This document shows positions 29,230 through 47,575 of a stretch of 64,000 nucleotides of DNA, piece by piece. Within the stretch, counting starts at the first letter, position 1. Every line of letters starts with the position of its first letter. The stretch comes from Vibrio penaeicida (GTDB taxonomy: Bacteria; Pseudomonadota; Gammaproteobacteria; Enterobacterales; Vibrionaceae). Position numbers and translations under genes: made by a program. A model generated the notes under the pieces. The model did not search any database and had not been told where the DNA came from. It saw nothing but the letters and a program-made list of their open reading frames with translations. The stretch is from the NCBI RefSeq assembly GCF_019977755.1, contig NZ_AP025144.1:744001-808000 (forward strand). The letters run 5' to 3'.

Positions 29230-29640
29230 TTAGAGATCGTTGGGAGTATAGCTTTTAAATCGAGCGATAAACCAAGTTTCAAATACAAGTAAAGAGATAA
29301 CGCCATATTGCCAATGGGTTCCCCATGCAAGCCAATACAAGACCGCTCCCATAGACAACCAGATAACCACTAGTGATTGGATTTTCTCTGCTTTTGTTAA
29401 CCCTTGCTTGTTCTTTAACCGTCTTGAAATAGGTCCTAAATACTTATTTTGAAGCAACCAATTTTGAAATTTCTCAGATGTTGCTCCAAAGCAATAAAGC
29501 GAGACGAGCAGAAATGGAACGGTGGGAAGCAACGGAATAAATACCCCGATAAAAGCGAGCACAACCGTAAGCCACCCTAGAGCGATAAGGAAAAGGCGCT
29601 TTCCGTTTGAGATTGGCGTATCTGTGTGCACTTTTTCCAT
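29230..29640 (-). CDS. YbaN/DUF454-family inner-membrane protein
   Basis: A 136-residue membrane protein with about three or four helices. The family pattern is GWLTVVLAFIGVFIPLLPTVPFLLVSLYCF followed by the NKYLGP motif. The biochemical function of this family is unknown. A promoter with a strong cluster of Fur boxes lies upstream (29707-29748), so it is probably iron-regulated. That fits family members found in iron-related loci. Confidence 0.85.
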   Translation of the reverse strand: MEKVHTDTPISNGKRLFLIALGWLTVVLAFIGVFIPLLPTVPFLLVSLYCFGATSEKFQNWLLQNKYLGPISRRLKNKQGLTKAEKIQSLVVIWLSMGAVLYWLAWGTHWQYGVISLLVFETWFIARFKSYTPNDL

Positions 29641-29879: not shown

Positions 29880-29916
29880 CCTCGCGCTGCAATCGTGCAG
29901 TAGATAGGAGCTTATC

Positions 29917-29961
29917 ATGAGTAATGCCGACAATCCTCCCAGTAGTCGAGGAGAAAAATAG
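29917..29961 (+). CDS. 14-residue leader peptide upstream of the MgtE-like gene
   Basis: ATG to TAG encodes MSNADNPPSSRGEK, preceded by TAGGAG at ideal spacing. It lies 165 nt upstream of the transporter start. An acidic residue followed by a Pro-Pro pair within the first eight codons resembles, in composition though not in sequence, the ribosome-destabilising EPDP of enterobacterial MgtL. The peptide is too short for ordinary gene calling. I infer a cis-acting regulatory ORF that senses low Mg2+ or slow proline decoding. Confidence 0.6.
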   Translation: MSNADNPPSSRGEK

Positions 29962-30126
29962 CTGCATGATCCTGAAATGACTCTCCATCGATTTCAAACT
30001 TCTATTTATCTCCCTTCTACAAGAGCAAGACTTCCCTTTACAGGTAACTGAATTCCGGAAGTATGTTGGTTGTTCATGAAATTTACTGTCTTTTGGCAAT
30101 AGATACCGCTAATCGGGAGATTCGCA
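29962..30126 (+). promoter_or_regulatory. C-rich, G-poor leader between leader ORF and mgtE-like gene
   Basis: The segment 29980-30050 is pyrimidine-rich and poor in G, the composition of Rho-loading (rut) sites. ACTTCC at 30030-30035 can pair with GGAAGT at 30057-30062, and TTCCGGAA at 30053-30060 is self-complementary. Ribosome stalling or drop-off at the leader ORF could expose or hide these parts. No intrinsic terminator is visible, so Rho-dependent attenuation is the simplest model. Confidence 0.45.
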
Positions 30127-30939
30127 ATGACAATATATTCTGAAGAAGAAACAAATACGGTATTCACAGTATTTAAGCAGTATGACCATGAACATCAGCT
30201 TTACTTACTTTCAATTATGCCACTGGAAGAAGTAACAGCGATTCTCATGCATTACTCAGTAAGGGAAGTTCAGCACTTTATGAAGCAACTCGAAAAGTGT
30301 GGTCATGATTTACGTGCACGGCAGTGCGCAATCCGGCTTGGCTTCATTCATTCTGAAGCTGAAACCGCGCAAGGGTATATGTCTACCAATGTGTTTGAAC
30401 ACTTTAAACAGCGTGTTGGGTGGATAATTGGATTAGCACTGCTAGGAATAGTTTCAGGGCTTATTATTGCTCAATATGAGGATACACTAAGCCAATTAGT
30501 GTTATTGGCAATTTATATGCCGGTCATCGCTGCAGCTGGAGGAAATACTGGAACTCAAGCTGCAACACTTGTCATTCGTGCACTCGCAACTGGAGAAATA
30601 AGAAAGAGGCAGTGGCTACAGGTACTTTGGAAAGAAAGCCGTGTGTCTCTTTTGTTAGCAATTGTGGTCGCGATAGTGATTGTAGCCAGAATCATGCTAT
30701 TTAGCGGAAATGTGAATACTTCGAACTTTGAATTGGAATTGATCGCGATAGCAGTAGCTGTCGCTCTGTTTATTCAAGTCACCATATCTACAACGTTAGG
30801 TGGTGTGTTGCCTATTTTAGCGCGAGCGTGTCGACTGGACCCAGCAGTTTTAGTGAGCCCAGTATTGGCGTCTATTGTCGATATATCAGGCATTTGGATC
30901 TATTTTACCGTAGTGAATCATTTTCTAGGCTTGAGTTAA
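30127..30939 (+). CDS. Short MgtE-like Mg2+ transporter lacking CBS domains
   Basis: A 270-residue protein, about 60 percent of usual MgtE length. A reduced N domain (about 5-85) leads directly into five membrane helices (about 98-268). The permeation signature GGNTGTQAATLVIRALATGE (138-157) and the DPAVLVSPV...VDISG segment, with Asp252 at the family's ion-selecting position, are intact. The tandem CBS domains that gate full-length MgtE by binding Mg2+ are absent. Mg2+, Co2+ or another divalent cation could be carried. Its 3' end overlaps the converging dacB by 35 bp. Confidence 0.85.
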   Translation: MTIYSEEETNTVFTVFKQYDHEHQLYLLSIMPLEEVTAILMHYSVREVQHFMKQLEKCGHDLRARQCAIRLGFIHSEAETAQGYMSTNVFEHFKQRVGWIIGLALLGIVSGLIIAQYEDTLSQLVLLAIYMPVIAAAGGNTGTQAATLVIRALATGEIRKRQWLQVLWKESRVSLLLAIVVAIVIVARIMLFSGNVNTSNFELELIAIAVAVALFIQVTISTTLGGVLPILARACRLDPAVLVSPVLASIVDISGIWIYFTVVNHFLGLS

Positions 30940-40523: not shown

Positions 40524-40607
40524 GCCGAGATGGTGAAATTGGTAGACACGCTAGCATGAGGTGCTAGTGCCTTTGGTGTGAGGGTTCGAGTCCCTCTCTC
40601 GGCACCA
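40524..40607 (+). tRNA. leuU: tRNA-Leu (GAG)
   Basis: The acceptor stem GCCGAGA / TCTCGGC ends in encoded ACCA. The anticodon loop ATGAGGT contains GAG, closed by CTAGC/GCTAG. A class II long variable arm and the TTCGAGTCCC T arm are present. It lies directly after secG. Confidence 0.95.
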
Positions 40608-40621
40608 TAAGTTCTGCAAAC

Positions 40622-40649
40622 TTGTAAATTACTGCCTTGGGCGTATAAT
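40622..40649 (+). promoter_or_regulatory. Promoter of tRNA-fMet / rimP-nusA operon
   Basis: -35 TTGTAA (40622-40627), 16-bp spacer, perfect -10 TATAAT (40644-40649). The discriminator GCTCAGC is GC-rich, a hallmark of stringent control of tRNA promoters. Confidence 0.75.
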
Positions 40650-40663
40650 GCTCAGCAGTCGGA

Positions 40664-40740
<77 letters not shown>

Positions 40741-40843
40741 ATTTCTAGCAAGTGATGTTGTTAAAGTTGGATGCAAGTTTGAGCGGTTTTACCTAACCGC
40801 AAACTGAACAAGATAATGTTCAGTTATATCAGGGTCCAGCAAC

Positions 40844-40870
40844 AAAAACCCCGACTAATCGGGGTTTTTT
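40844..40870 (+). terminator. First terminator between tRNA-fMet and rimP
   Basis: AAAACCCCGA / TCGGGGTTTT with CTAA loop and T6. Because the downstream nus operon is normally fed by read-through, it probably attenuates rather than fully stops. Confidence 0.9.
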
Positions 40871-40923
40871 GTTATTTGTATTTTGTACTGTGCAAAATAT
40901 GAGTAATGCTCGGCTATTTGATA

Positions 40924-40943
40924 GGGCTATTAGCCCTTTTTTT
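40924..40943 (+). terminator. Second terminator/attenuator before rimP
   Basis: GGGCT / AGCCC with 3-nt loop followed by T7, only 32 nt before the rimP ATG. An upstream GGCTA (about 40911-40916) could pair with the TAGCC arm and act as anti-terminator. Confidence 0.75.
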
Positions 40944-47195: not shown

Positions 47196-47305
47196 AGAGT
47201 GCTTGTGTTTACTCATTACACCCCGTATAATTCGCGCTTCGCGTGTCGGCTGAATCAGAGATTGGCTGGCACAGTTTTATACTCAACTCTTATTAGGAGA
47301 GAAAT

Positions 47306-47575
47306 ATGTCTCTGAATGCAGAAACTAAAGCAGCAATCGTTGCTGATTACGCACAATCTGAAGGCGACACTGGTTCACCAGAAGTACAAGTAGCTCTACT
47401 GACTGCTTCTATCAACCACCTACAAGGTCACTTCAAATCGCATAAGCAAGACCACCACAGCCGTCGCGGTCTGCTACGTATGGTTTCTCGTCGTCGTAAG
47501 CTTCTAGACTACCTTAAAGGTAAAAACCTAGAGCGTTACCAAGACCTAATCAAACGTCTAGGCCTACGTCGCTAA
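47306..47575 (+). CDS. rpsO: 30S ribosomal protein S15
   Basis: An 89-residue primary 16S-binding protein. Family motif [29 protein letters not shown] is intact (motif spans about 38-66). RBS TTAGGAGAG precedes the ATG. Its message is known in E. coli to be autoregulated by a pseudoknot at the start, which I did not attempt to model here. Followed by a strong terminator and then pnp. Confidence 0.97.

Follow-up and report, generated by a model that had tools for sequence, protein, structure and literature searches.

The window, by which we mean the whole stretch of 64,000 nucleotides that was analyzed, carries on its plus strand a short mgtE gene preceded by a small open reading frame (ORF) that ends 165 nt upstream of the mgtE ATG (position 30127). 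The original prediction had described a 14-codon leader ORF at this distance, provided with a TAGGAG Shine-Dalgarno (SD) sequence and with an acidic residue and Pro-Pro within eight codons, in front of a short MgtE. Its coordinates and sequence agree with ours, D5, P7 and P8 are present as described, and PF01769 is the sole Pfam match of the 270-residue MgtE, which is 98% identical to the MgtE of V. penaeicida strain 6E01. The leader ORF reads ATG AGT AAT GCC GAC AAT CCT CCC AGT AGT CGA GGA GAA AAA TAG. The features of the locus are the following:

29887..29900, plus strand: 5' stem-loop CTGC-AATCGT-GCAG, directly 5' of the leader SD (minimum free energy [MFE] fold)
29905..29910, plus strand: SD TAGGAG of the leader ORF (sequence; GGAG is kept here in nearly all relatives)
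29917..29961, plus strand: leader ORF encoding MSNADNPPSSRGEK followed by its stop; ATG at 29917, TAG ending at 29961, 14 codons
29950..29961, plus strand: 5' strand of helix P3, GGAGAAAAATAG, formed by the last codons and the stop; pairs with 30002-30013 in the MFE fold and the duplex search (-12.5 kcal/mol)
29962..30060, plus strand: C-rich, G-poor stretch past the leader stop, a possible Rho loading region by composition only (27 C and 13 G in 99 nt)
30002..30014, plus strand: 3' strand of helix P3, CTATTTATCTCCC (MFE fold, duplex search and sequence)
30064..30079, plus strand: P1 segment TGTTGGTTGTTCATGA, opposite the leader start (29915-29921 and 29926-29932) in the MFE fold
30108..30125, plus strand: mgtE translation initiation hairpin GC.AATC-GGGA-GATT.GC, which holds the mgtE SD GGGAG at 30115-30119 (MFE fold)
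30127..30939, plus strand: short mgtE, 270 amino acids, no CBS domain found (PF01769, 4.5e-34, residues 131-262)

A simple scan of the 64 kb for short SD-led ORFs in which Pro-Pro follows an acidic residue within the first ten codons recovered the leader ORF as the sole case on the plus strand and one further ORF, VGEPPIVTPADRRTF, on the minus strand; the plus strand shuffled in two-base blocks gave a mean of 0.06 such ORFs over 50 shuffles. Around the ORF, the site of the 5' stem-loop holds stems of altered sequence in relatives (e.g., CTGCC..GGCAG and CTATC..GATAG, by eye in part of the alignment), and the leader SD reads GGATA in locus L101. The mgtE initiation hairpin is near-invariant in sequence in most relatives and altered in L102-L105 and L113. 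Loci L102-L105, from genomes of group g8, combine GTG-started leaders with a weakened or changed mgtE SD (CCGGGAAA, CCGGATAA).

The gene neighborhood upstream varies. A minus-strand DUF454 gene (29230-29640) lies between tyrS and mgtE in the window, and in some other Vibrio (e.g., L041 and L048) the leader comes directly after a tyrS-like gene's end. In some species an in-frame DGRYLLPIGRFAM precedes the mgtE ATG, as if this region encoded an N-terminal part of MgtE. The distance from GTTACC to GCCAATC changes by lengths not divisible by three, and we therefore rejected such a reading as generally valid.

Distribution of the leader and its link to short mgtE

A protein search yielded 65 loci with short mgtE, 64 from Vibrio or Vibrionales and one from Salinivibrio, and a counterpart of the leader was present in every one of them, its commonest form being MNNTDHPPSxKGEK or a near variant. 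Retrieval made use of a DxPP pattern, yet these 65 mgtE loci were found through the protein, and all carry a DxPP leader. The leader starts 201-357 nt 5' of the mgtE start in the 65 loci, and its stop lies roughly 155-325 nt from mgtE in relatives. R1, a leader covariance model derived from 48 sequences, matched 196 of 296 Vibrionaceae genomes, with one match per genome, in searches that (as in those of 394 genomes of the order) used stricter filters by which weak matches are lost. Conservation outside the source genome, on which the original prediction had been made to depend, is thus found: the ORF and its Pro-Pro are kept in most Vibrionaceae, and synonymous changes are present.

The distribution of the leader follows that of short MgtE. 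With the latter defined by a match at E<=1e-70, the leader was found in 181 of 184 genomes (missing in G132, G254 and G260), and at E<=1e-50 in 185 of 189 (G123 also being without it), a count that includes G230, where the leader is followed by a truncated MgtE. The R1 search found it in none of the 26 genomes having only MgtE matches weaker than 1e-50. Genome G260 has a degenerate leader of the L005 type; in L005 itself the leader has a CTG start and an early stop and may therefore be decaying. Three mgtE copies (L068, L070 and L071) have no leader. Conversely, 11 genomes have the leader and no MgtE match at 1e-20, and in each of the eight whose loci were read (G009, G018, G028, G033, G038, G170, G231 and G258) a truncated MgtE follows the leader; the same holds for G267.

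At the level of the order, R1 matched 25 of 394 genomes, of which 24 belong to Vibrionaceae and one, G342, to another family. The latter carries both leader and short mgtE (L138, G342:C1:1316600-1319400). No leader was detected in the other 10 genomes of this family, seven of which have longer MgtE frames (428-445 amino acids) and three no match at 1e-20. A transfer from Vibrionaceae into G342 is therefore likely.

Loci with truncated MgtE were also seen among 30 genomes retrieved through the leader model and picked by hand, in part for missing MgtE. In 10 of these 30 loci the leader is followed by an MgtE that is open yet truncated, at 108-131 amino acids; five belong to Vibrio genus g1 (L088, L089, L091, L113 and L117) and five to genus g10, which is Salinivibrio according to its member L067/L081 (L092, L093, L095, L096 and L097). 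The truncated protein corresponds to the N domain, lacks the channel, shows no more than one apparent membrane helix, and has been retained in the five g10 genomes despite sequence divergence. A longer MgtE is encoded elsewhere in all eight genomes with truncated MgtE that were checked. A longer MgtE-like frame, open over 455 amino acids, also occurs besides short mgtE in the genome of L002 (G000:C1:629613-630113), and the leader model matches this genome once only, before short mgtE.

Coding pattern of the leader ORF

Codons were counted in 132 leaders representing 84 distinct ORFs, among which some genome repeats remain (e.g., L067 and L081); the frameshifted L113, the genomes of L004 and L005 encountered again as L083 and L084, and the leaderless L068, L070 and L071 were dropped. 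Pro-Pro is invariant in all 84 distinct ORFs. Codon 7 is CCT in 63 and CCC in 21 of them, and codon 8 makes use of all four Pro codons (CCT 37, CCG 29, CCC 14 and CCA 4), a pattern of fixed first and second positions and free third position that is expected from a translated Pro-Pro. The original prediction had named an Asp-Asn-Pro-Pro motif. Its Asp and Pro-Pro hold throughout the family, and its Asn is a local variant within a core that is better written Asp-x-Pro-Pro, given that codon 6 encodes His in 76 ORFs, Gln in three, Asn in three, Tyr in one and Ser in one. Codons 3 and 4 also vary.

The boundaries of the ORF are flexible in a manner that respects the frame. Starts are ATG in 80 ORFs, GTG in three and CTG in one, stops are TAA in 47, TAG in 32 and TGA in five, peptides range from 11 to 19 residues, and leaders of the Harveyi type have five additional codons, in frame. 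Given the four codons at Pro8 and the three kinds of start and of stop codon, the leader ORF is very probably translated. In L113 the leader frame is lost, and the gene behind it is truncated too. A chance ORF is ruled out by the 65 of 65 loci, the 196 of 296 genomes and the synonymous codon pattern; the leader ORF is real. Two codons were kept to the letter, GAC at codon 5 in 84 of 84 ORFs and AGT at codon 9 in 81 of 84, indicating that constraint operates at the RNA level as well.

Covarying helices in the leader RNA

Pairings were tested in 68 leaders that remained after thinning at 88% similarity, and in 66 of these where the mgtE start was needed. Two helices that involve the ORF covary in the family. 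The first, P3, joins the last codons and stop of the ORF to a strand that was sought 40-140 nt past the stop and that mostly lies about 40-100 nt past it. Its two strands change together between groups, with GGGAGAAAAAU opposite AUUUUUCUCC in Vibrio, GGAGAAGAAU opposite AUUCUUUUCC in the splendidus group, GGUGGAAAAUC opposite GAUUUUCUUCC in g8 genomes (with one mismatch), and GGGAAGC opposite GCUUCCC in g3 genomes. Native strands paired at -15.26 kcal/mol as compared with -13.73 kcal/mol when strands were swapped between species, a difference reached in 0 of 20000 permutations (n=68) and in 229 of 20000 within a "Vibrio" subset of 41 leaders, one of which is from Salinivibrio (L067). The second helix, P4b, pairs codons 2-5 with the RNA just past the stop (CAAUACCG with CGGUAUUG; CGAUACCG with CGGUGUCG in g8 genomes); its swap test gave 0 of 20000 permutations in the 68 leaders and 22 of 20000 in the subset, as compared with 2115 of 20000 for a control segment. 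Note that permutations are blind to shared ancestry and the significance of all these counts is therefore overstated.

Alignments provided a complementary line of evidence. In a structure-blind alignment (A2) of 33 of the 35 references, from which two members of the divergent clade of the window, L003 and L004, were left out and in which MAFFT placed the 3' strand wrongly in several rows, P3 showed 22 cells changed on both sides versus 9.8 in shuffled data (0 of 500) and 74.9% paired cells versus at most 60.9% when the strands were slid; pairs with double changes numbered 10 versus 6.8 (26 of 500), weakly above chance. In alignment A1, P4a, P4b and P5 together had 37 double-change cells versus 14.0 shuffled and eight pairs with double changes versus 5.9 (59 of 500), with P4a paired in only 72.7% of cells. 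The half of P4 that includes the SD was unsupported as a covarying helix (4869 of 20000 permutations). P3 and P4b cross and must therefore be alternatives or form a pseudoknot. The leader thus displays features expected of a regulatory upstream ORF (uORF): its start, stop and synonymous coding pattern are conserved, and it takes part in two conserved pairings that cross.

Two other pairings were kept apart from these. P1, which in most relatives opposes GATGGTCG to CGACCATC of codons 4-7, showed complementarity (-12.80 versus -8.73 kcal/mol shuffled) and no covariation, native and swapped strands giving -12.80 and -12.63 kcal/mol in the thinned leaders; with a mismatch in L079 in addition, we regard P1 as an idea and not as an established pairing. 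P2, in which UCGUUACC opposes GGUAAUGA at the mgtE start, was kept out of the model; by eye, it shows compensatory change in L102-L105 and L138, is interrupted by one mismatch in L085 and one in L102, and has been lost from L018, L115 and L134.

The fold of the window leader as a whole was no more stable than that of shuffled sequences (z -0.27, with 65 of 200 equally stable). No Rfam family matched at gathering score at the locus or in the four relatives tested, leading us to reject a known Rfam element, including the Mg2+ leaders M-box and Mg sensor. Lax Rfam searches returned chance-level matches only, the one at the locus being on the opposite strand. Elsewhere in the window (40524-40943 and 47242-47362) Rfam identified ordinary elements: two tRNAs, a rimP leader and an S15 leader.

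Predicted effect of ribosomes on the mgtE start

In the P3 3' strand, ATCTCCC (30008-30014) exactly complements GGGAGAT (30115-30121) of the mgtE SD. We folded 66 leaders in silico with segments masked as if covered by ribosomes. Masking the whole ORF decreased mean predicted accessibility of the mgtE SD from 0.65 to 0.44, with a decrease of more than 0.1 in 34 leaders, an increase in two (p 2e-7) and a change of at most 0.1 in the remaining 30. A control mask raised accessibility in seven of 66 and lowered it in nine (p 0.9). Masking from the leader SD to codon 9 had the opposite effect, with increases in 18 of 66 and decreases in five (p 0.0003). These folds lead to the prediction that full translation of the leader represses mgtE and that loss of the ribosome before the end of the ORF permits its expression.

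P3 appears to be one part of this predicted effect. Masking codons 10 to stop only lowered SD accessibility in 15 of 66 and raised it in four (p 0.17), and masking the ORF together with the P3 3' strand lowered it in 20 and raised it in seven (p 0.14); P3 alone is therefore insufficient to explain the effect. With the ORF masked, the mgtE SD was predicted to pair on average with the P3 3' strand (0.20), with the RNA from the stop to this strand (0.17), with its local surroundings (0.12) and with the RNA past the strand (0.06). In the window itself the partner was the segment past the P3 3' strand (0.91) and rarely the strand (0.06).

The position of a single ribosome also matters in the folds. 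A footprint parked at codon 8 (+6 to +36) removed most of P3 and reduced mean accessibility from 0.65 to 0.56, and footprints at the leader stop and start gave 0.54 and 0.67, respectively. A lasting pause at Pro-Pro is thus disfavored as the switch: the codon-8 footprint partly overlaps P3 and makes the SD less accessible in the predicted folds, an effect of the wrong sign.

A model for the control of mgtE and its alternatives

Taken together, the leader most likely exerts ribosome-driven control of mgtE. More specifically, we propose, with a confidence that falls just short of even, that it acts in cis as a translated leader peptide and switches the mgtE mRNA from one fold to another. A ribosome loaded by the strong SD would meet Asp-x-Pro-Pro at codons 5-8. 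A ribosome reading through to the stop would cover the end of the ORF and keep it from pairing in P3 with the downstream strand, exposing pyrimidine-rich, anti-SD-like RNA past the stop that would occlude the mgtE SD and keep mgtE expression low; the exposed C-rich stretch may load Rho as well, with the same outcome. If instead the ribosome dropped off at D-x-P-P, as would be expected at low Mg2+ when ribosomes are unstable, the vacated last codons would form P3, hide the anti-SD-like RNA and allow mgtE to be made. A ribosome that merely paused at codon 8 would not suffice, as it would cover part of P3. Drop-off at DxPP, Mg2+ as the signal, and an output through mgtE translation, Rho or both are steps that we infer. 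The leader has a single acidic residue and carries no repeated or EPDP-type motif of the kind proven to destabilize ribosomes, and its fit to intrinsic ribosome destabilization (IRD) motifs, in which acidic residues near the start of the peptide, repeated or combined with Pro, cause drop-off at low Mg2+, is partial, consisting of one invariant Asp with Pro-Pro.

The alternative that survives best, in our opinion still unlikely, is a strict Rho attenuator of the MgtL type, which would act on transcription and not on translation of mgtE: once the leader had been read to its end, a rut site would become accessible and Rho would terminate, and abort of translation would hide the site. A C-rich, G-poor stretch had been proposed to follow the ORF as a Rho loading signature, and in the window the composition is indeed as described: the best 60-nt excess of C over G past the stop is 15, a value reached by 2% of 130-nt window pieces, and the P3 3' strand sits within this pyrimidine-rich stretch. 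The signature is a loose one. Across 132 leaders the excess averages 11.7 (range 6-19), and since about 10% of window pieces reach that mean, the family as a whole is no more than mildly unusual in this composition. Rho may be involved at the leader, with which the composition fits loosely, but the near-invariant mgtE initiation region and the predicted effect on the SD speak for translational control, and folding suggests control of mgtE translation through its SD at least as much as control through Rho.

Two further alternatives retain the ribosome and change what it senses or does, and we judge both to be improbable. Through its Pro-Pro, the leader could respond to how translation is proceeding (EF-P activity, the supply of charged tRNA-Pro or the slowness of Pro codons) instead of to Mg2+, with mgtE responding because Mg2+ demand follows ribosome content. 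The invariance of Pro-Pro is in line with this possibility, as are the reported control of mgtA of Salmonella by EF-P (PMC6460261) and the title of a paper concerning the Pro codons of MgtL. A pure Pro sensor would, however, have no need of an Asp5 that is equally invariant (84 of 84); the use of all four codons at Pro8 implies that no single codon is tracked, and a ribosome stalled at codon 8 would prevent P3. Translation of the leader could alternatively activate mgtE, by ribosomes opening an inhibitory fold (the long-range P1 pairing or the P4 hairpin) or by coupling that feeds ribosomes to mgtE, a reading to which we accord the same low standing. P1 links leader codons with the segment 5' of the mgtE start, and the gain in SD accessibility under the mask reaching codon 9 points in this direction; the distance from leader stop to mgtE, in the window as in relatives, is beyond simple coupling, and the whole-ORF mask lowers accessibility instead of raising it. 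Lastly, a structured riboswitch in which the ORF is incidental would account for the strong nucleotide conservation, the invariant GAC at codon 5 and the covarying helices, but it is very improbable in view of the hallmarks of translation (synonymous variation at Pro8, alternative starts, shifting in-frame stops and five-codon in-frame additions) and of the lack of an Rfam match at gathering score.

Returning to the proposed translated switch, the original prediction was right about the ORF and probably right about a regulatory role, and its reading as a whole is partly supported. The leader would constitute a single-copy switch kept in most of Vibrionaceae that may control Mg2+ uptake in marine vibrios and their relatives. 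In a salinity transcriptome of Photobacterium damselae, MgtE was 5.35-fold higher at 1% than at 3% NaCl according to PMC10308900, an observation that we do not count as evidence on the leader.

Comparison with known Mg2+-responsive leaders

A literature search (mgtE with Vibrio or Vibrionaceae, leader peptide, uORF and riboswitch), covering neither most subscription papers nor bioRxiv preprints, gave, among the matches listed, no apparent description of this leader. The closest counterparts are found before other Mg2+ transporter genes. The transporter encoded by mgtA is a P-type ATPase, of another family than MgtE. Like MgtL, which precedes mgtA in Salmonella and E. coli, the Vibrio leader is a tiny uORF that precedes a gene for Mg2+ transport, has an acidic residue and Pro early in the peptide, lies upstream of a C-rich stretch, and is placed such that early ribosome abort would alter the downstream fold. 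In PMC11282234, drop-off at EPDP of MgtL in low Mg2+ is described as hiding a Rho site. Membership in the MgtL family is defined by a position before mgtA and an N-terminal EPDP; here the gene is mgtE (PF01769) and the peptide core is D-x-P-P, with one Asp and Pro-Pro in place of EPDP. No sequence similarity to MgtL was seen by eye. Furthermore, and unlike MgtL, the last codons and stop of the Vibrio leader themselves form a strand of a covarying helix.

The logic proposed here is shared more closely with mgtQ, which precedes mgtB in Salmonella. As outlined in PMC8092293, Asp2 and Glu5 of this tiny ORF abort translation, alternative stem-loops form, the anti-RBS is sequestered and the mgtB RBS is freed. 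Unlike the Vibrio leader, mgtQ is described there as lying inside an operon, between mgtC and mgtB, with a single Pro and before another gene. The mgtE motif of Thioalkalivibrio resembles the Vibrio leader in being an element before mgtE with the SD at a stem base (PMC11109978). By that description it is a riboswitch candidate of one genus and not a uORF, and we set it apart as a different element.

It is therefore worth considering, as a tentative proposal that we hold with less confidence than the switch itself, that Vibrionaceae have a ribosome-based Mg2+ sensor of their own for the MgtE channel, in which a nine-codon MNNTDHPPS core would abort translation at Asp-x-Pro-Pro at low Mg2+ and the final codons would act as an anti-anti-SD that frees the mgtE start. 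Such a sensor would be an independent analogue of MgtL and MgtQ, with another transporter family and another destabilizing motif. This suggests that ribosome stability may have been recruited as a gauge of Mg2+ on more than one occasion, and that Asp-x-Pro-Pro may be a second class of motif for ribosome abort. The leader of Vibrio mgtE would thus be alike in logic to the Salmonella Mg2+ switches MgtL and MgtQ and apparently unrelated to them in sequence.
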